From NCBI GenBank assembly GCA_024516035.1, contig CM044955.1, positions 13,244,079-13,308,078 of the forward strand: a stretch of DNA of 64,000 bases, read 5' to 3'. Shown here one piece after another: positions 7,600 to 49,231 of the stretch; positions within the stretch are counted from its first letter, which is position 1, and the number at the start of each line of letters is the position of its first letter. Position numbers and translations under genes: made by a program. This stretch comes from Bactericera cockerelli (lineage: Eukaryota; Arthropoda; Insecta; Hemiptera; Triozidae). The notes below the pieces were generated by a model. It did no database searches. It was not told where the DNA came from and saw only the letters and a program-made list of their open reading frames with translations.

Positions 7600-8202
7600 A
7601 TAAGAAATAATATAATAATAAAGAAATAATATCGCCTTATTTGCCGGCCTCCGTGGCGTAACGGTTATGACTACTGCCCGTAGTCCAGAGATCCTGAGTT
7701 CAACTCCCGGCTGGGGCAGACTTTTCGAAGAAAATTCTGTTCCATCCAAACACGTGAGGCTGGCATTTCCGGCCCTACCCAGGCTGGGTGAGGTTAATGT
7801 GGGTATCTGGTACGATTCGCAGCGAATGGAGGGTAAAACCCCCGTCCTAATCCAGGACGTTAAATCAAATAGAATCGTTGGCGTTAGGAAGGGCATCCAG
7901 CCGTAAAAAATGTGCCAAAACCAATCAACCTCAACCATGAGGTTGAACAACGTCGACCCTGCTGAGCAGGATAAGACAGAGTAAAAGAAGAAGAAGAAAA
8001 GATCGCCTTATTTATACTGCCTGAATAGGACAATTAAAGTTCCATGAATCCAGCAGCAGCTCAAGACATATTATTATGTGGTAAAATCCCAAATGGAAGG
8101 ATAAATTGTCATGTCCCGGCTGGGTTTTGAACCCGCGACCTCTGGTATCTCTGGATTCACCTTTACCACTGAGCCGCCTTTACCACTGAGCTACCAGGAC
8201 AG
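7600..8202 (-). mobile_element. tRNA-derived SINE, family A, interrupted copy
   Basis: Read on the minus strand from 8202, the head is CTGTCCTGGTAGCTCAGTGG (box A) and GGGTTCAAAACCCAGCCGGG (box B), followed by TCCATTTGGGATTTTACC, ATAATAATATGTCTTGAGC and the AAGGCGAT tail with TAT repeats. Family-C SINE sequence interrupts it at 7643-8001. The segments 7600-7642 and 8002-8202 are the two pieces, sharing ATCGCCTTATTT. A short internal duplication (CCTTTACCACTGAG twice) sits in its head at 8160-8190. The tail reaches to within about 20 bases of the Beat exon acceptor. Confidence 0.82.
7643..8001 (+). mobile_element. tRNA-derived SINE, family C, full length with 12-bp target duplication
   Basis: The tRNA-like head has TGGCGTAACGGTTATGAC (box A) and GAGTTCAACTCCCGGC (box B). 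The body holds the module CCCAGGCTGGGTGAGGTTAA and GAATGGAGGGTAAAACCCCC, shared with the 5S-headed SINE. It continues GGCGTTAGGAAGGGCATCCA and ATGAGGTTGAACAACGTCGA and ends in AGAGTAAAAGAAGAAGAAG. ATCGCCTTATTT at 7631-7642 and 8002-8013 is the target duplication, created inside an older family-A SINE. Confidence 0.9.
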
Positions 8203-8233
8203 ATTAAGGGCCGAATTATGAAACAGAATTAGT

Positions 8234-8447
8234 CTGTCCCGGTAGCTCAATGGTAAAGGCGGCACTCTGTGAATCCAGAGATACCAGAGGTCGTGGGTTC
8301 AAAACCCAGTCGGGACATGACAAGTTATCCTCCCATTTGAGATCTCTACCACATAATAATATGTCTTGGGCTTACTGTTGGAATAATGGGACTTAAAAGT
8401 CCTAATCGGGCAGTATAAATAAGGCGATATTATTATTATATTATTAC
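8234..8447 (+). mobile_element. tRNA-derived SINE, family A
   Basis: It opens CTGTCCCGGTAGCTCAATGG (box A), has GGGTTCAAAACCCAGTCGGG (box B plus the end able to pair with the start), then the body and the (TAT)n tail. It faces the minus-strand copy ending at 8202, with 31 bases between them, so together they form an inverted repeat with arms of about 200 bp. Confidence 0.88.
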
Positions 8448-17055: not shown

Positions 17056-17189
17056 CATTTCGTTGTTCCTGTACCAGGTGATGTTCACCCCAGGGTAGGC
17101 GGGGCCAGACGTACAGTTGGCCCTGATCACTTCCCCGTACGGATACTTCCATTTGTCCGTCTGGATTTGAGGCATGGATTTAGGAGGAA
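17056..17189 (-). CDS. beat: Beaten path-like protein, exon 3 of those seen (second Ig domain, N-terminal half)
   Basis: The exon encodes VPPKSMPQIQTDKWKYPYGE, then VIRANCTSGPAYPGVNITWY and RNNEM. The valine is completed by the last base of the upstream exon. NCTS gives the B-strand cysteine and NITWYRNNE the C-strand tryptophan of the second Ig domain; NCT and NIT are potential N-glycosylation sites. The minus-strand acceptor is TTTCAG before TTCCTCCTAAA, and the donor is GTAAGC after GAAATG, leaving phase 0 and matching the exon at 7364-7583. The split of the domain across two exons at this point is consistent with the two conserved cysteines lying on different exons. Confidence 0.9.
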
Positions 17190-26450: not shown

Positions 26451-26586
26451 CAACAACTACAAGGTAACTAGAACCGACGACTGTGTAGAACTTGGGATAG
26501 TCAGTGACCACTTCACAGCGATAGTAGTCGCTCAGTTCCCGCTGCATGTTGATCAGGCTGACTCTGGTGTCGGTGGAGTTGTTCAA
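26451..26586 (-). CDS. beat: Beaten path-like protein, exon 2 of those seen (first Ig domain, C-terminal half)
   Basis: The exon encodes LNNSTDTRVSLINMQRELSD followed by YYRCEVVTDYPKFYTVVGSS and YLVVV. YYRCEV is the F strand of the first Ig domain, whose cysteine pairs with the CTYD cysteine of exon 1. LNNST follows ITVD of that exon as in the family pattern GI-VD-L. The minus-strand acceptor is TTTCAG before TTGAACAAC (phase 0). The donor is GTGAGT after GTTGTTG (phase 1), matching the exon at 17056-17189. NNST is a potential N-glycosylation site. The aspartate in LSDYYRC stands where glycine is commonest. Confidence 0.92.
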
Positions 26587-31979: not shown

Positions 31980-32080
31980 TTGGAATGCCAGCATCATGAA
32001 GTCTTCACCTTGCTGGACGTTGCTTAACTTCGGTGATCTTACGAGAATCTGTGCATTCAACGCGCCATCGACGCTGGCTG
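31980..32080 (-). mobile_element. 5S-type SINE head, partial
   Basis: On the minus strand: CAGCCAGCGTCGATGGCGCG, TTGAATGCACAGATTCTCGT, GATCACCGAAGTTAAGCAAC and GTCCAGCAAGGTGAAGACTT. The body is missing past GCTGGCATTCC. It faces the full copy at 32155, so the two 5S-like heads form an inverted repeat separated by about 75 bases. Confidence 0.82.
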
Positions 32081-32154
32081 AAAACCCCCCTTAATTGAGT
32101 TAAAAATTTGGACAGATAGACTTTTCATTCCCCCACGTTTCAAAGTAAAAATGA

Positions 32155-32428
32155 GCCAGCGTCGATGGCATGTTGAATACACCGGTTCCCTTCAGAACAC
32201 CGAAGTTAAGCGACATCCAGCGAGGTTAAGACTTGGATGGGTGACCATTCAAATTCTAATTCTCGTGACGCTGGCTTTTCCCGGCCCCACTCAGGCTGGG
32301 TGAGGTCAATGTGAGTAGCAGGTTTGTGAGTTTCCTGCGAATGGAGGGTAAAACCCCCGTCGTGATATGACCATGGCAGTTGAAAGCGACGTTAAACCCC
32401 ACTTCAAAAAAAAAAAAAAAAAAAAAAA
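32155..32428 (+). mobile_element. 5S rRNA-derived SINE, full length with poly(A) and target duplication
   Basis: The head, 32155-32275 (121 nt), is a complete 5S-like sequence. GCCAGCGTC at the start pairs perfectly with GACGCTGGC at the end. ACACCGAAGTTAAGC and GACTTGGATGGGTGACC match the internal control region of 5S genes. TTTT follows directly. The body, 32280-32400, has CACTCAGGCTGGGTGAGGTC, GCGAATGGAGGGTAAAACCC and GACGTTAAACCCC, then about 23 A. AAAGTAAAAAT before and after is the target duplication. Confidence 0.9.
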
Positions 32429-39026: not shown

Positions 39027-41382
39027 CAGCGTACATGTACTATCCAATAGTACATGTACGCTATTCAACGTAACGCTGCGCTGGTAAAATGTTGAATTGA
39101 TCTGTTTTATAGAATGTTGGGTGCTATTCTGGACATTTCCAGTTGTATTGAGTTTCAAAAGAGCAAAGTTTACGAAGCATTAATGCGAGAATGTAACAGA
39201 ACCTAATCCAACATAGGTTATGGGATAAAGCTAGTATGAGACCCCATCGTTTCGCATGCTCTGTCAATTAATCATATCAAATGAATATAAAACTAACTTC
39301 ATTTCAGTGAAAATAATGAAAGAGGAAAAAATAAAGGAGAGGAAAAGTTGGGTGATAAAAGCTCGGTACAGAAAAGAAATAGGGTAGCGTCGGGTGACCA
39401 GACCGGGGGTAATGACGGCTCCATTGAATATTTTTCTGAAACAAGTATAAATGAGCGGACCCCTAGCAGACAGTTGTCGGGAAAATGTGTTCGATGTTGC
39501 CTGCATGATAACTAGGTGGAGTGGAAATTTCACATAGGAAATGCAAAATTCGACAGTGAAGTCGAATTTTCTCTTAGTTCCATCAGATTTCTCGATGATG
39601 CATGACGTATCGAGATTTTTTTTTCTTTCTTATAAGGCGCTTTAACTTGTAGTTTGAAGTCGTTCGCACGGTCCCGCTATAGATCTATGTTAAGTGGAAC
39701 ATTTTGAGGAGAACAAGGAAAATCAACGTCAGGTACCTGATATGGAACCTGACAACCTGGTTGGGTGGAAGAGCTCCCTTTAAAAAAAATAGGACCTGGA
39801 CACCGTCCACTTTGTCATCAAGAGCAGGAGGGCAGGGGAGGGTGGGGTGAATATGATCATGACGGGGGCATATCAGGTTGACCCACAGACGGTCGCCACA
39901 CTGACAGTCTGGTGGTTCAGATCCCGTGAACTAACTAAGAGTTGTGAGTTATCCATGGGTAGCCTATCCCCATTCGGGTGAGTACTATTTCAAATTATTA
40001 CGGGTCGCCTTTGAATCAGAATTCCATATTTATTAAAAAAATTACGTCTTAGCACATTTGTAAACTTTCCTTTTTTAGTCAAGACAAGTGAATAATTTAT
40101 ACTTGCAAGGATTCCCAGGTAGAATTATGTCAGGTATCAGACACTACACGCTTTTTTTCTATTCAGAGCTATCTGACAAAAGATAACCTATTATTCAGTC
40201 CATTTATTGGTTTATTGAAAGCGGATAGAGATCGAAGGAGAGAGAGAGTGAGAGGGGGAAAGAGGGAGAGGATATGATAAAGAAAGTAGAGCTAGTGGTA
40301 GAGGAAGATAGGGAGAGAAGTATAGAGGGTGTGTGTGTGATAAAGTTAGACAAGCGGTGTAGAAAGAGAAGAGAGAGACAGATAGATAGAGAAACAGGAG
40401 AGAAAAAGAAGAAGGAGTAAAATAGGAAGCTGACGATTGCAAATAAGGTAAAAAATATGCAAAATAATGCAAATGGAAAATAATTTAATGGAGAAAAAAA
40501 GTCCTTGTTTTATTCATTTGCCCGGTTTTTATTTCCAGTCGATATCTACATTATCTACCTTAGTTTCTGTCCCTTGTTTCTGTCCCTCAGTAGCTCAGGG
40601 CGGAAGAGGTGCTGAATCAGCCTAAGGAGGGGTATGACAGTCAAGAGGGTGTGAAGTGATGGAAAATGTAGGTACACATTACAACATAATATGATAAAAG
40701 GTATAAATGTAAAAGATGCATTATGCAGATGTAAAAAATTCATGCAGCTTCTATCTACTTCTATCTTTGAATTCAAATTGAAAGTTTTTTTTTCCTTTTG
40801 AGAATGGGCTTTTGGTAGGCATATAGATAATAATTAGTGAAATTATATAACAATAGATTAAATCGGACAGGTACAGATGGGTGATCTTGAGTTATAATTT
40901 TACCAATTGAAAAGAAAATCTAAATCAAGACATTCAAGTTGTTTTTGCAAATTTCTAAGGGTGAAATTAATATAGGTTTACAATAATTTTGTAACTAATA
41001 CTTAAAACTGAGAATTTGATCCTTTAATTTCGCGTATTGTTTTATATGGGGAAATATAAGTTTGGAATAGGACTTGTGATTCCGATTTTCTCTATCTATC
41101 TATTACTCGTAATTTCGCCCAAAGCGTCATTTAGTCAAATTACCCTAAACGTCTGTTAGTAATTAAATAATAGTAAGTAGACTTTAAGTGTTAATCCGGC
41201 TCAAGTAATCTGGTTAAGTTCAATTCGATTCAATACTTACTTACATTTTATTTTTGTATTCGACTAATGTATGTGTACTTGAATTTTATCTTCTGTACTA
41301 TAGTACTTACCATTGTATATCTTGTACAAACAGTTACTTTCTACTTTTGTTATGTGAATATTTATGGAATAAAAATACTTAC
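39027..41382. other. Intronic spacer with a 15-bp hairpin and a GA-rich tract
   Basis: AGCGTACATGTACTA at 39028-39042 is perfectly inverted at 39048-39062 (loop TCCAA). About 40215-40410 is GA-rich. The segment 39870-39960 has a weak tRNA-like look (GGTGGTTCAGATCCCG). No gene was recognised. Confidence 0.45.
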
Positions 41383-41591
41383 GTCAACGGTGATTCCAGA
41401 AGACGCAAAAGTTCTGGTGGGAGGGATTTCTTTCGGTACAAATCGGTAGAACTCGGTTTTGCCCCGAAACCACTTGACCGAGTAGAGAAGGTCACCCTCG
41501 AGGTCGTATGTACACTCGAGCATGCAGCTTCCTCCGGACACCACCGCCTGGGGGACGGTGATCTTCAGATTCCTCAGGCCATGCGTCAGGT
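41383..41591 (-). CDS. beat: Beaten path-like protein, exon 1 of those seen (first Ig domain, N-terminal half)
   Basis: The exon encodes LTHGLRNLKITVPQAVVSGG, then SCMLECTYDLEGDLLYSVKW, FRGKTEFYRFVPKEIPPTRT and FASSGITVD. Family hallmarks are the L-L-I-VP-AV strand, C-Y-LEG-LYSVKW (B-strand cysteine and C-strand tryptophan), FYR-PKE-PP and GI-VD. The minus-strand acceptor is GGTTACAG before ACCTGACGC, so two bases complete a codon begun upstream. The donor is GTAAGT after GTTGAC, phase 0. A signal peptide is expected from an exon further right that was not found. Two partial copies of this exon's 5' edge lie just upstream (41779 and 41956). Confidence 0.93.
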
Positions 41592-42019
41592 CTGTAACCA
41601 GAAGAAGAATCTTGTGAGAAGGTTGTACACGATTCATTAATTCATCGTATGACTGTTTTATTTCAGAAAATAAATAAAATATCAACATATTTATACTGCC
41701 CGATTGAGACTATTAAAGTCCCATTATTCCAGCAGTAAGCCCAAGACATATTATTATGTGGTAAAAATCCCAAATGGGATCTTCAGATTCCTCAGGCCAT
41801 GCGTCAGGTCTGAAATCAGGAGAAGAATCTCGTGAGAGGGATAATAATAATAATAATATCGCCTTATTTATACTGCCCGATTGAGACTATGAAAGTCCCA
41901 TTATTCCAGCAGTAAGCCCAAGACATATTATTATGTGGTAAAAATCCCAAATGGGATCTTCAGATTCCTCAGGCCATGCGTCAGGTCTGTAACCAGAAGA
42001 AGAATCTCGTGAGAGGGAT
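41561..42019 (-). repeat. Tandem copies of the exon edge joined to SINE family A sequence
   Basis: The exon block ATCTTCAGATTCCTCAGGCC plus ATGCGTCAGGTCTG occurs at 41561 (in the exon), 41779 and 41956. Each extra copy is fused at its left to AAATGGG of the SINE body and at its right to AAGAATCTCGTGAGAGGGAT and the (AATAAT) SINE tail. The two extra copies are 177 bp apart. The third copy keeps the intron wording TGTAACCAGAAGAAG, while the middle one has TGAAATCAGGAGAAG. Confidence 0.92.
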
Positions 42020-42229
42020 AATAATAATAATATTGCCTTAATTTATACTGCCCGATTGAGACGATTAAAGTCCCATTATTGCAGCAGTAAGCCCAAGACA
42101 TATTATTATGTGGTAAAAATCCCAAATGGGAGGATAACTTGTCATGTCCCGGCTGGGTTTCGAACCCACGACCTCTGGAATCTCTAGATTCAGAGAGTGC
42201 CGCCTTTACCACTGAGCTACCGGGACAGA
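42018..42229 (-). mobile_element. SINE family A, full length
   Basis: On the minus strand: CTGTCCCGGTAGCTCAGTGG (box A), AGGTCGTGGGTTCGAAACCC and AGCCGGGACATGACAAGTTA (box B and stem), then TCCCATTTGGGATTTTTACC, ATGTCTTGGGCTTACTGCTG and the AAGGCAATATTATTATTATT tail. The 3' part of this element was copied, with the exon edge, into the two tandem units to its left. Confidence 0.9.
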
Positions 42230-42622
42230 AGGATGTACAAGTGTACATAGTGCACTTGTAGTCAAGTGGTTAACGCGCTAGTCTGGTAATCCAGGTAGCG
42301 TAGGGATGCGTTGGTTCGAATCCCACCCAGTGCATGAATTTTGCCTCATGAATTTGAGTTTGTGACCACATAATAATAAGACTCTGAGGCAGTGGCGGCT
42401 CGTCGGGTGAAGACACTGAAGACATTTTCACCTAATTTTGAACAGTGAAAACACTACTCATAATCCCTTGAACATGGCACAATTGATCCAACTCAAAGAA
42501 AAAAAAAAAAAAGAGTAAGCTTTGTGTAAAATAGATCAATGCTGCTTAACATTTCATGTTACTTTCCAAGGAGAACACCAAATGTGAAGACAATTCGAAA
42601 TTGTCTTCAGTTGTCCTTGAAT

Positions 42623-45282
42623 CAGTGGCGGCTCCTGACTTCAAGACTAGGTGAAGACAAATTATACCCAGAAGTATTGAAAAAATAAAATTATTAATTT
42701 ATCAGATCTTAGTTCTTATGGTCTCATAAACACAGCCCATTGTAAGTTATGGCTGTTTCCCTGCAGAGCATGATTTTCTCTCATACCAGTTTTGCATCAT
42801 ATAAGTTTTTATAGGTACTTTTTTTGGAGAACACTTGGTACTTAATAAATAAACAAGGCCAGCAGAACAATTTGTCAACACTTGAGCTGGTACACAGCCA
42901 TTCATTTTTCATAAGCCATTCAGGCTTGAACTGTATGGCTGTGGGGCAGGCATTTGCTTTACTTTTTTAGTGGTGGTTATAGTAATTGGAGATCCAGTAA
43001 TCATAATATCTTTCTTATCCTCATTACTTCTTAATCTGAATGGGGTTACTTTTAATGTTTGAACCCCATGATTTTGTGGGGATCTCATTGTTTCTTTGAA
43101 ATATTGTTATTAATTATTCATCTTAATAAAAAATATTTATTCATCTTAATAAAAAATATTAACTAAAAGTTGGTAAAAAGGAATTAAAATAAAAATATTA
43201 GGATTATACCTCAGTAGTTAGAACTAGGAAGGAAAGAAAATTAGTTGAAGACTAAAAATTACAATCCAAAACTGGAAGAAAATCCACCACCAGATTACAA
43301 AATAAATCTAAGAAAACATACTTACTACAAATATAAAATCAGCTTAAATTTGTGTTACCATTGATGTTTAAATGACTAGGTATTTAAGAAAAACACAGAT
43401 ATTGCCTTATAATTTTAAGTACTTCACTGGAAGCTGTGGGCTTAGCTACCTGCAACCTGCATAATTATAATGTTATTTCTGACACTGAAAGAAGTACATA
43501 GCTACTTCATATTCAACTTATTATGAAAAGCACAGGTCAGATCAGGTAGGAATAATGTTTCTATCCTGTATCAAATACTGGGAAATAACTTTATTAACTA
43601 GTTACACCAATTAAAAGTCACTTGATTACCGTTGAAAAGATTTGAAAATGGTCTAATAAAATTTAAAAAGTACGCGACAAGTTTTGTTTACATTCTAAAG
43701 ATAAGAGATACAATGTTGCCAAGTTAATTTCATTGCTAAATTTCTACAAACTTCAAGAGCTATATTTTAAATTTAAAGAAATCCCTCAAATCATGTAAGA
43801 CGTATTTATTTATTTAAAAAAATAATACTACACCGCCTGAACAGAATTTTCTCTTGAGAATTTCATTTCAACACGTCTAATTTCATGATTTTTTTTTAAA
43901 GTGGTTCCATAGTCAGGATCTTAAACAGGACCACCATTGTCCCTATTTAAAAACTTCTTGGAACAACTAGATACCAGATTATCTTATTTGGCTCAATTTC
44001 GGTACCTACATTAAATAATTATTTCCGAGATTTGACTTCAATTGAGATGTCCTTTTTAATACTACATATACAGTAGAAATCGTTTATAACGACACCGTTT
44101 ATAAGGAACAATCGGCTATAGCAAACAAAATCTCCGGTCCCTTGGATTCTTATGGAAAATTAACATTGGTATCATTTATAACAAACATCGGCTATTAGGA
44201 ACAATATCGGCTTTAGCGAACAAATTCTTAAGTCCCGTGGCTACTTTCTATCGGTTATAACGTACAAAATTCATTTTGATGCTCTGTGAGTAAAACAGAA
44301 AACATGTTTAGTTATGCAGATTTTTGTCAAGAAGTAGATGAGTGATCTGTCTGATTTAGATCATTTTATAACACCTAAAAGTTAGTATTGTTTCAGATTT
44401 TGAATTAGTGGATTATGAATGTACCTACATTCATACATAATTGTACATTTTTCATGTCTTACGAAGTTCCCTTATAACGTACATTGTTCTCTATAAGCGA
44501 TACATATCGGATATAGTGAACTTGTTCCTTATAGCCGATATATCGGTTATAGTGAAAATCGGCTATAAGGAACAAATCTGTCCGGTCCCTTGAAGTTCGT
44601 TATAAACGATTTCTACTGTAGTTGACAAGATACATAAAATATAGTTAAAATTTATTGGTATCGGCTATCGTTTAGGAACTATGTACAAAACTAGAACCCA
44701 AAAAATGAGAAATAATATCCAAAATTCCTGACACAAAATCCTGCTTTCCTAGCGCCTACGTTATTATTATTATTTTTTTTTTAATATTACAAGATTGTGC
44801 TAGATATGGGAGGCTAAATCATTGACTGGTTTCCTAGGTCTGGCATAATGCTACTGGCAACAATGTTAATATCAAAAACACATGACATCGCACATGGTAT
44901 GTGGCTTCGTGACATTTCGTATGAGGTCGTGTAGATAATGTAAACTGAATACAACTGAAGACTGTCCTCAGTAGCATATTACATAGATATAGTTCTTGCC
45001 TAATATTTCATGATACCTACTTGGAAATACTCAACTCTGATTGGTTGATTCAAGGACAACTGAAGACAATTTCGAATTGTCTTCACATTTGGTGTTCTCC
45101 TTGGAAAGTAACATGAAATGTTAAGCAGCATTGATCTATTTTACACAAAGCTTACTCTTTTTTTTTTTTTTTTCTTTGAGTTGGATCAATTGTGCCATGT
45201 TTAAGGGATTATGAGTAGTGTTTTCACTGTTCAAAATTAGGTGAAAATGTCTTCAGTGTCTTCACCCGACGAGCCGCCACTG
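42623..45282 (+). mobile_element. hAT-type element copy A (complete ends)
   Basis: It starts CAGTGGCGGCTCCTGACTTC and ends CGACGAGCCGCCACTG. It is 2660 bp long, of which 548 bp is an inserted pogo-like MITE. CCTTGAAT at 42615-42622 and 47211-47218 is the 8-bp duplication made when A plus B entered copy C. No intact transposase reading frame is present, so it is a non-autonomous family. Confidence 0.88.
44071..44618 (+). mobile_element. pogo/Tigger-like MITE
   Basis: Perfect inverted ends of about 22 bp (CAGTAGAAATCGTTTATAAC and its inverse) are flanked by TA on each side. The interior repeats CGGCTATAAGGAACAA and GGTTATAGTGAA-type motifs and has GGTCCCTTGAAGTTCG near the right end, as in pogo/Tigger relatives. 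Copies B and C of the host hAT element lack it. Confidence 0.85.
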
Positions 45283-47210
45283 GTACTTAATAAATAAACA
45301 AGGCCAGCAGAACAATTTGTCAGCACTTGAGCTGTTACACAGCCATTCATTTTTCATAAGCCATTCAGGCTTGAACTGTATGGCTGTGGGGCACGCATTT
45401 GCTTTACTTTTTTAGTGGTGGTTATAGTAATTGGAGAAATTGGACATCCAGTAATCATAATATCTTTCTTATCCTCATTACTTCTTAATCTGAATGGGGT
45501 TACTTTTAATGTTTGAACCCCATGATTTTGTGGGAATCTCATTGTTTCTTTGAAATATTGTTATTAATTATTCATCTTAATAAAAAATAATTATTCATCT
45601 TAATAAAAAATATTAACTAAAAGTTGGTAGGTAAAAAGGAATTAAAAAAAAAATATTAGGATTATACCTCAGTAGATAGGTAGGTACAACATTTTAAAGA
45701 GGGGTTAGAACTGGGAAGGAAAGAAAGTTAGTTGAAGACTAAAAATTACAATCCAAAACTGGAAGAAAATCCACCACCAGATTACAAAATAAATCTAAGA
45801 AAGATACTTACTACAAATATAAAATCAGCTTAAATTTGTGTTACCATTGATGTTTAAATGACTATTTATGAAAAACACAGATATTGCCTTATAATTTTAA
45901 GTACTTCACTGGAAGCTGTGTGCTTAGCTACCTGCAATCTGCATAATTATAATGTTATTTCTGACACTGAAAGAAGTACATAGCTACTTCATATTCAACT
46001 TATTATGAAAAGCACAGGTCAGATCAGGTAGGAATAATGTTTCTATCCTGTATCAAATACTGGGAAATAACTTTATTAACTAGTTACACCAATTAAAAGT
46101 CACTAACTTGATTACCGTTGAAAAGATTTGAAAATAATCTAATAAAATTTAAAAAGTGCGCGACAAGTTTTGTTTACATTCTAAAGATAAGAGATACAAT
46201 GTTGCCAAGTTAATTTCATAGCTAAATTTCTACAAACTTCAAGAGCTATATTTTAAATTTAAAGAAATCCCTCAAATCATGTAAGACGTATTTATTTATT
46301 TAAAAAAAATAATACTACACCGCCTGAACAGAATTTTCTCTTGAGAATTTCATTTCAACACGTCTAATTTCATGATTTTTTTTAAAGTGGTTCCATAGTC
46401 AGGATCTTAAACAGGACCACCATTGTCCCTATAAAAAAATCTTGGAACAACTAGATACCAGATTATCTTATTTGGCTCAATTTCGGTACCTACATTAAAT
46501 AATTATTTCCGAGATTTGACTTCAATCGAGATGTCCTTTTTAAGACTATAGTTGACAAGATACATAAATAGTTAAAATTTATTGGTATCGGCTATCGTTT
46601 AGGAAATATGTACAAAACTAAAACCCAAAAAATGAGAAATAATATCCAAAATTCCTGACACAAAATCCTGTTTTCCTAACGCCTACGTTATTATTATTAT
46701 TATTTTTAATATTACAAGATTGTGCTAGATATGGGAGGCTAAATCATTGACTGGTTTCCTAGGTCTGGCATAATGCTACTGGCAACAATGTTAATATCAA
46801 AAACACATGACATCTCACATGGTATGTGGCTTCGTGACATTTCGTATGAGGTCGTGTAGATAATGTAAACTGAATACAACTGAAGACTGTCCTCAGTAGC
46901 ATATTACATAGATATAGTTCTTGCCTAATATTTCATGATACCTACTTGGAAATACTCAACTCTGATTGGTTGATTCAAGGACAACTGAAGACAATTTCGA
47001 ATTGTCTTCACATTTGGTGTTCTCCTTGGAAAGTAACATGAAATGTTAAGCAGCATTGATCTATTTTACACAAAGCTTACTCTTTTTTTTTTTTTTTTTT
47101 TCTTTGAGTTGGATCAATTGTGCCATGTTCAAGGCATTATGAGTTGTGTTTTCACTGTTCAAAATTAGGTGAAAATGTCTTCAGTGTCTTCACCCGACGA
47201 GCCGCCACTG
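45283..47210 (+). mobile_element. hAT-type element copy B (left end missing)
   Basis: It begins GTACTTAATAAATAAACAAG, equal to copy A from position 42838, so the first 215 bp are absent and B abuts the right end of A directly. It ends CGAGCCGCCACTG. A 62-codon minus-strand frame at 45354-45542 (MRFPQNHGVQTLKVTPFRLR) is open here. It is interrupted in C and has a nine-base in-frame loss in A. Its function is unknown. Confidence 0.88.
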
Positions 47211-49199
47211 CCTTGAATCAACCAATCAGAGTTGAGTATTTCCAAGTAGGTATCATTAAATATTAGGCAAGAACTATATCTATGTAATATGCTACTGAGG
47301 ACAGTCTTCAGTTGTATTCAGTTTACATGATCTACACGACCTCATACGAAATGTCACGAAGCCACCATGTGCGATGTCATGTGTTTTTGATATTAACATT
47401 GTTGCCAGTAGCATTATGCCAGACCTAGGAAACCAGTCAATGATTTAGCCTCCCATATCTAGCACAATCTTGTAATATTAAATAATAATAATAATAACGT
47501 AGGCGTTAGGAAAGCAGGATTTTGTGTGAGGAATTTTGGATATTATTTCTCATTTTTTGGGTTCTAGTTTTGTACATAGTTCTTAAACGATAGCCGATAC
47601 CAATAAATTTTAACTATTTATGTATCTTGTCAACTATAGTCTTAAAAAGGACATCTCGATTGAAGTCAAATCTCGGAAATAATTATTTAATGTAGGTACC
47701 GAAATTGAGCCAAATAAGATAATCTGGTATCTAGTTGTTCCAAGAAGTTTTTAAATAGGGACAATGGAGGTCCTGTTTAAAATCCTGACTATGGAACCAC
47801 TTTAAAAAAAAAATCATGAATTTAGACGTGTAGAAATGAAATTCTCAAGAGAAAATTCTGTTCAGGCGGTGTAGTATTATTTTTTAAAATAAATAAATAC
47901 GTCTTACATGATTTGAGGGATTTCTTTAAATTTAAAATATAGCTCTTGAAGTTTGTAGAAATTTAGCTATGAAATTAACTTGGCAACATTGTATCTCTTA
48001 TCTTTAGAATGTAAACAAAACTTGTTGCGCACTTTTTAAATTTTATTAGATTATTTTCAAATCTTTTCAACGGTAATCAAGTGACTTTTAATTGGTGTAA
48101 CTAGTTAATAAAGTTATTTCCCAGTATTTGATACAGGATAGAAACATTATTCCTACCTGATCTGACCTGTGCTTTTCATAATAAGTTGAATATGAAGTAG
48201 CTATGTACTTCTTTCAGTGTCAGAAATAACATTATAATTATGCAGGTTGAAGGTAGCTAAGCACACAGCTTCCAGTGAAGTACTTAAAATTATAAGGCAA
48301 TATCTGTGTTTTTCATAAATAGTCATTTAAACATCAATGGTAACACAAATTTAAGCTGATTTTATATTTGTAGTAAGTTTGTTTTCTTAGATTTATTTTG
48401 TAATCTGGTGGTGGATTTTCTTCCAGTTTTGGATTGTAATTTTTAGTCTTCAACTAACTTTCTTTCCTTCCCAGTTCTAACCCCTCTTTAAAATGTTGTA
48501 CCTACCTATCTACTGAGGTATAATCCTAATATTTTTTTTTTTAATTCCTTTTTACCAACTTTTAGTTAATATTTTTTATTAAGATGAATAAATATTTTTT
48601 ATTAAGATGAATAATTAATAACAATATTTCAAAGAAACAATGAGATTCCCACAAAATCATGGGGTTCAAAAATTAAAAGTAACCCCATTCAGATTAAGAA
48701 AGATATTATGATTACTGGATGTCCAATTTCTCCAATTACTATAACCACCACTAAAAAAGTAAAGCAAATGCCTGCCCCACAGCCATACAGTTCAAGCCTG
48801 AATGGCTTATGAAAAATGAATGGCTGTGTACCAGCTCAAGTGTTGACAAATTGTTCTGCTGGCCTTGTTTATTTATTAAGTACCAAGATTTCTCCAAAAA
48901 AAGTACCTATAAAAACTCATATGATGCAAAACTGGTATGAGAGAAAATCATGCTCTGCAGGGAAACAGCCATAACTTACAATGGGCTGTGTTTATGAGAC
49001 CATAAGAACTAAGATCTGATAAATTAATAATTTTATTTTTTCAATACTTCTGGGTATATTTTGTCTTCACCTAGTCTTGAAGTCAGGAGCCGCCACTGCT
49101 CTGAGGGTTAGGTTGTAGAAAAGGCTTTGAGCATTAACCTCGCCTGGTGGTTACCTTCACTAAAGAGTGTTTTTATTACTATTATATGATTTATTTATT

Positions 49200-49231
49200 T
49201 ATCGTATGACTGTTTTATTTCAGAAAATAAA
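49200..49231. repeat. 30-bp direct repeat of intronic sequence
   Basis: ATCGTATGACTGTTTTATTT followed by CAGAAAATAAA occurs here and at 41643-41674. The two copies flank the whole block of SINEs and hAT elements. Confidence 0.85.

Follow-up and report, generated by a model that had tools for sequence, protein, structure and literature searches.

A Beat gene on the minus strand

The window, a stretch of 64,000 nucleotides of Bactericera cockerelli DNA (contig CM044955.1), carries on its minus strand three exons of a gene for Beaten path (Beat), a nerve-wiring protein. Ig-motif patterns were among the means used to trace the gene beyond its first exon:

41383..41591, minus strand: first-half exon of Beat Ig1, 209 nt, with a phase-1 acceptor at 41592/41591 and donor GAC/GTAAGT at 41382; matches Beat-Vb and Beat-Vc
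26451..26586, minus strand: second-half exon of Beat Ig1, 136 nt, from the three-exon translation; exon-edge repeat not found
17056..17189, minus strand: first exon of Beat Ig2, 134 nt, from the three-exon translation; exon-edge repeat not found

The Ig1 first-half exon (41591-41383) matches the solved Beat-Vb with an E value of 1e-8 and Beat-Vc with 4e-6. Joined, the three exons yield a translation that matches Beat-Vc and Beat-Vb at E 4e-19 over about 150 of 159 residues, and the reading frame stays open across them, from Ig1 into Ig2. Judged on these three exons, the gene is apparently intact. No Beat exon was found 5' of the Ig1 first-half exon; the intron downstream of it is about 14.8 kb long. 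The Ig1 exon has 20 matches in the genome, from 22 candidates.

The acceptor edge of the Ig1 exon is present three times

Self-comparison of 41383-42239 revealed a 63-bp piece, comprising the last 31 nt of the intron and the first 32 nt of the exon, that occurs three times:

41560..41622, minus strand: the original exon edge, termed gamma
41778..41840, minus strand: exon-edge copy beta, identical at 58 of 63 positions (five mismatches), with acceptor GATTTCAG at 41810/41809
41955..42017, minus strand: exon-edge copy alpha, identical at 61 of 63 positions (two mismatches), with acceptor GGTTACAG at 41987/41986

Within the window the repeat matches reach E values of about 1e-21 or better, so chance is ruled out. 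Tandem Repeats Finder describes the region as a tandem array with a period of 177 bp and 2.6 copies, and inside this array both extra exon edges are joined to SINE sequence. All five variable columns of the 63-bp piece lie in its intron part, and the 32 exon bases are identical across the three copies. When the six edges of the window's three Beat exons were tested, only the acceptor at 41591 carried a repeat. A whole-genome DNA search, which skips very common words, placed the 63-bp piece at three sites, all at this locus (565 Mb, 1032 contigs; all three candidates scored). The triplicated acceptor of the Beat Ig1 exon is confirmed as a real feature.

The original prediction, that the exon's acceptor edge is present three times with the two extra copies fused to SINE body, is borne out at these positions. 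Its estimate of the repeat size needs a small correction, the exon part being 32 bp rather than about 33 and the intron part 31 nt. The acceptors GGTTACAG, GATTTCAG and GGTTACAG precede ACCTGACGCATGG just as claimed, and translation from beta or alpha runs, again as claimed, into LTHGLRNLKIPFGIFTT followed by a stop, which is reached after 17 codons from either acceptor.

A tRNA-derived SINE lies upstream of the exon

The remainder of the array consists of SINE sequence, a target-site duplication and the end of another repeat:

about 42018..42226, minus strand: full-length SINE of family A, with tRNA-like head (Rfam tRNA, 30 bits, 42145-42226), body and (ATT)n tail
41841..41954, minus strand: the SINE body of unit beta with its (ATT)n tail; genomic copies at 95-99% identity
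41689..41777, minus strand: SINE body of unit gamma, joining the copied exon edge at 41777/41778
42227..42239, minus strand: 5' copy of the target-site duplication, TGTACATCCTTCT, adjoining the SINE head, from sequence comparison
41617..41629, minus strand: 3' copy of the target-site duplication, TGTACAACCTTCT; it stops 25 nt short of the exon and agrees with the 5' copy at 12 of 13 positions
41631..41674, minus strand: the terminal 44 bp of a different dispersed repeat, including an (AAAT)n-like tail; 41 of 44 positions identical to 49188-49231

tRNA-derived SINEs are known near splice sites, and are built of a tRNA-like head, a body and an A/T-rich tail with a target-site duplication. The same parts are all present here, with a full-length SINE and its tRNA-like head at the upstream end of the 177-bp array, and dispersed copies are many. 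The difference from such insertions is that, as the array formed, the adjoining exon edge was copied along with the SINE body. For the stretch 41841-41956, about 40 genomic copies elsewhere were scored (40 of 1532 first-look candidates, with at least 46 matches), most of them 95-99% identical. Body and tail are common to six alignable SINE copies elsewhere, the alignment covering six loci with L006 left out. Agreement as good as that of the target-site duplication (13 bp with one mismatch) was reached in 10 of 19884 random trials. This duplication flanks the SINE, which therefore appears to have landed 25 nt before the exon with its 3' end exon-ward.

The 44-bp piece lies in the exon-proximal unit gamma, between the SINE tail and the target-site duplication. 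A remnant of the empty target site was considered for it and ruled out, since the piece is the end of a dispersed repeat. At both 49188-49231 and 41631-41674 this end is sharply bounded, about 42 bp long and followed by an (AAAT)n tail. It has 34 further matches in the genome, a count that leaves aside both copies in the window and a single match lying elsewhere on the query. Most of the sequences that match the window copy break off at one common point.

Proposed history of the array

We consider it probable that a SINE inserted first and that tandem duplication on the spot then produced the triplicated acceptor as a side effect. The sequence itself shows units that start within the exon (41560), pass over the acceptor and reach into SINE body, arranged head to tail. 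A tRNA-derived SINE would have inserted 25 nt before the acceptor of the Beat Ig1 exon, after which a first tandem duplication, broken at one end in the exon and at the other in the SINE body, would have copied the region. The 44-bp stretch would then have been lost from the upstream copy, and a second tandem duplication would have given the two truncated exon edges now upstream of the intact exon. This order is the simplest; other orders are possible, and the 44-bp insert makes the sequence of events ambiguous. Units alpha and beta are without the 44-bp piece and without most of the target-site duplication, and agree at two bases of the intron part where gamma differs; at one of these two, the 5' target-site copy matches gamma.

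Over 152 columns spanning the intron part, the exon part and the SINE body, the pairwise differences among the units are 6, 4 and 6, and the array is therefore not brand new. Given 8 variable columns in the 152, the exon piece would be identical in all three copies by chance with a probability of about 0.15, which counts against the favoured explanation. Selective conservation of the copied 32-bp piece was considered and rejected, the changes being too few to tell.

Elsewhere in the genome (L009; G000:C6:13593400-13595400), a family-A SINE occurs three times in tandem at a spacing of 314 bp, with its flank repeated too. This SINE-plus-flank array shows the same process away from the Ig1 exon.

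Splice-site strength and predicted use

Scored with metazoan base frequencies, the three acceptors reach 4.76, 4.64 and 4.76, which ranks them near the 98th percentile among AGs. These similar scores count against a preferred use of 41591. The donor scores, likewise based on such frequencies, are 3.16 for the real GAC/GTAAGT, -2.86 for the best GT between the real acceptor and that of beta, and -6.5 between beta and alpha. The copied 32-nt exon piece itself contains no GT. An exon that began at the beta or alpha acceptor would be 427 or 604 nt long, against 209 nt normally.

The spliceosome would be expected to use acceptor 41591 almost exclusively, because only this site defines the normal 209-nt exon with its strong donor. 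The upstream acceptors lack their own donor, and any transcript that leaked through them would contain the stop. Transcripts with a premature stop are degraded by nonsense-mediated decay, and leaked products of the extra acceptors are probably degraded. Exon definition should favour 41591 over the extra acceptors, and whatever masks these is plausibly ordinary exon definition combined with proximity across the exon. Masking by RNA folding was also considered. The folding prediction has all three acceptors mostly paired and is uninformative.

For alternative splice sites with large flanking introns, PMC9225289 describes a preference for the site closest across the exon. In the same study, upstream acceptors are reported to be preferred overall, a point against 41591, and in the long-intron class this preference is significantly reduced, not shown to be reversed. 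Combined with the 14.8-kb downstream intron, the published pattern would favour 41591, short of proof. We infer that the array is near-neutral. The acceptor copies look like harmless debris of ordinary origin, and a function for them is unlikely.

Exon-edge repeats elsewhere in the genome

Non-simple direct repeats crossing an exon edge were sought in 20 Beat Ig1 exons, 30 I-set exons and random pseudo-exons. The 20 Beat exons include near-identical paralogs and number about 13 when collapsed by eye; the second and third Beat exons of the window are left out of the 50 sampled exons. The 30 I-set controls were fetched from 150 scored matches (685 candidates). The first 20 were taken in rank order (frames under 200 aa, close pairs skipped) and the last 10 were hand-picked from the next 20, with flanks of 800 nt for L050-L069 and 400 nt for L070-L079.

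Edge repeats occurred in 3 of 20 Beat Ig1 exons, 2 of 30 I-set controls and 40 of 500 random pseudo-exons (23/250 and 17/250 in the two sets), so that the exons combined stand at 5/50 against 40/500. The point-wise null gave 33/427 and 46/589 unfiltered, and 14/385 and 43/689 filtered; the random null was drawn from Beat-gene flanks and the window rather than the whole genome. Edge repeats are slightly more frequent at Beat than at I-set exons, which counts against the favoured explanation; the difference is not significant (Fisher p 0.38, or 0.15 with the Beat exons collapsed to 13). A Beat-specific enrichment was accordingly rejected, being significant neither against I-set exons nor against random points.

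In this small sample, exon-edge repeats are neither clearly enriched nor clearly depleted relative to random points: any enrichment falls short of significance, and purging is not visible. Equality with random points could hide an excess at exons, because random points hold much transposon sequence, more than exons do.

Two Beat paralogs show such events. In the paralog at L036 (C3:15129698; G000:C3:15124698-15132698), the Ig1 acceptor and the first ~45 exon bases are present six times, and a second exon follows 0.9 kb further on; these copies form an 82/69-bp tandem array (L036, and L029 1080-1546) that ends in the intact exon and contains no SINE. In the paralog at L049 (C9:2406477; G000:C9:2403674-2411674), the Ig1 donor GTGGAC/GTGAGT and 14 exon bases form part of a minisatellite of 48-51 bp in the downstream intron, with at least 13 further donor copies. 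Among the I-set controls, a second copy of the edge is found at L063 (acceptor) and L077 (donor).

Comparison with known boundary duplications

In potato RdRp, a tandem duplication across an intron-exon boundary made a new intron, which is spliced (106 junction reads) and takes a cryptic GTAAG of the exon as its donor, as reported by Ma, Lan and Niu (2016, PMC4974935). As in the potato gene, the duplicated piece at the Beat locus reaches from the 3' end of the intron into the beginning of the exon, it brings along the acceptor, the pyrimidine tract and the putative branch site, and the copies have diverged slightly. The Beat locus differs from the potato gene in that no donor is present in the copied stretch of exon, the repeated unit includes a SINE body, and the locus is known from DNA alone.

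Internal tandem repeats of the minisatellite type have also been described in human paralogs, at the borders between exons and introns, and De Grassi and Ciccarelli (2009, PMC2812944) state that repeats covering such a border can give rise to new introns. The Beat array resembles these in placing tandem repeats over an exon-intron boundary. The human repeats are reported to vary among recent paralogs and were compared with transcripts, whereas the Beat locus is represented by a single assembly. For Drosophila, duplication within coding exons has been proposed for some novel introns (PMC2891723). Our literature search found no report of the exact arrangement, a SINE-containing array that copies an exon's acceptor edge. 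The Beat locus is a new example of the boundary-duplication kind already described, with a SINE body in its unit and without a donor of the potato type.

Alternative explanations

The original prediction proposed that inclusion from the extra acceptors would make a poison exon. As such a decoy switch they would be used in some cells, lowering Beat output through the premature stop and decay. The sequence features behind this proposal stand: there are three look-alike acceptors of equal apparent strength, both extra ones lead to a premature stop 17 codons in, and five additional acceptors occur in another Beat paralog. Its proposed consequence, the tuning of Beat output, finds no positive support and we regard it as improbable. 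Neither copy is followed by a fair donor of its own (-2.86 and -6.5 against 3.16), and Beat exons show no significant excess of edge repeats over random points or I-set exons. The duplication might instead be the first step of intron gain, by analogy with potato RdRp. It is of the same kind, across a 3' intron-exon boundary, and it spans the boundary and copies the acceptor signals. Against this, the potato donor came from a cryptic GTAAG in the exon, as reported in PMC4974935, whereas the copied Beat piece contains no GT, and the frame at the Beat locus is broken; an incipient intron is very unlikely.

Genome assembly is known to be error-prone where tandem copies are nearly identical, and the triplication comes from a single assembly, so the two extra copies could be false tandem duplications. 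Of the 63 positions, however, 2-5 differ between the copies, and the units are unlike one another in SINE body and tail, one of them holding the 44-bp insert, all of which makes an artefact highly unlikely. It is more improbable still that the SINE carried the exon edge with it, rather than the edge having been duplicated in place. A SINE body is indeed fused to each copy, but the array is head-to-tail with the same junction twice, and the exon edge is absent from the six other alignable SINE copies. SINE-borne transduction was rejected on the confinement of the 63-bp piece to the Beat locus in the whole-genome search.

Duplicated splice edges as a wider phenomenon

Taken singly, the locus amounts to ordinary tandem-duplication debris around a SINE. 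The part that merits specialist attention is the frequency of duplicated splice edges in the genome. The five cases among 50 sampled exons suggest that such edges may be common and tolerated. A broader proposal, which we advance tentatively as somewhat short of an even chance, is that a sizeable share of exons (5/50) carry copies of their own splice sites at about the repeat rate of random DNA, that these copies are roughly neutral, and that they amount to a natural, large-scale competition between identical sites, in which some, such as those of the six-acceptor Beat paralog, may be real decoys. If this is true, the choice of the spliceosome between identical sites, whose only differences are their position and the following exon, would become measurable in natural genes.

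Other repeats in the window

A 6.7-kb insertion at 42390-49103, with ends CAGTGGCGGCTC and GAGCCGCCACTG and an 8-bp target duplication CTCTGAGG, splits a second tRNA-like SINE. Inside it are direct and inverted copies that are 94-99% alike; from the length of its target duplication we take the insertion to be hAT-like. Two family-A SINE copies lie head to head at 7999-8439, and 31986-32276 holds an inverted pair of sequences resembling 5S rRNA, with Rfam scores of 65 and 39 bits.
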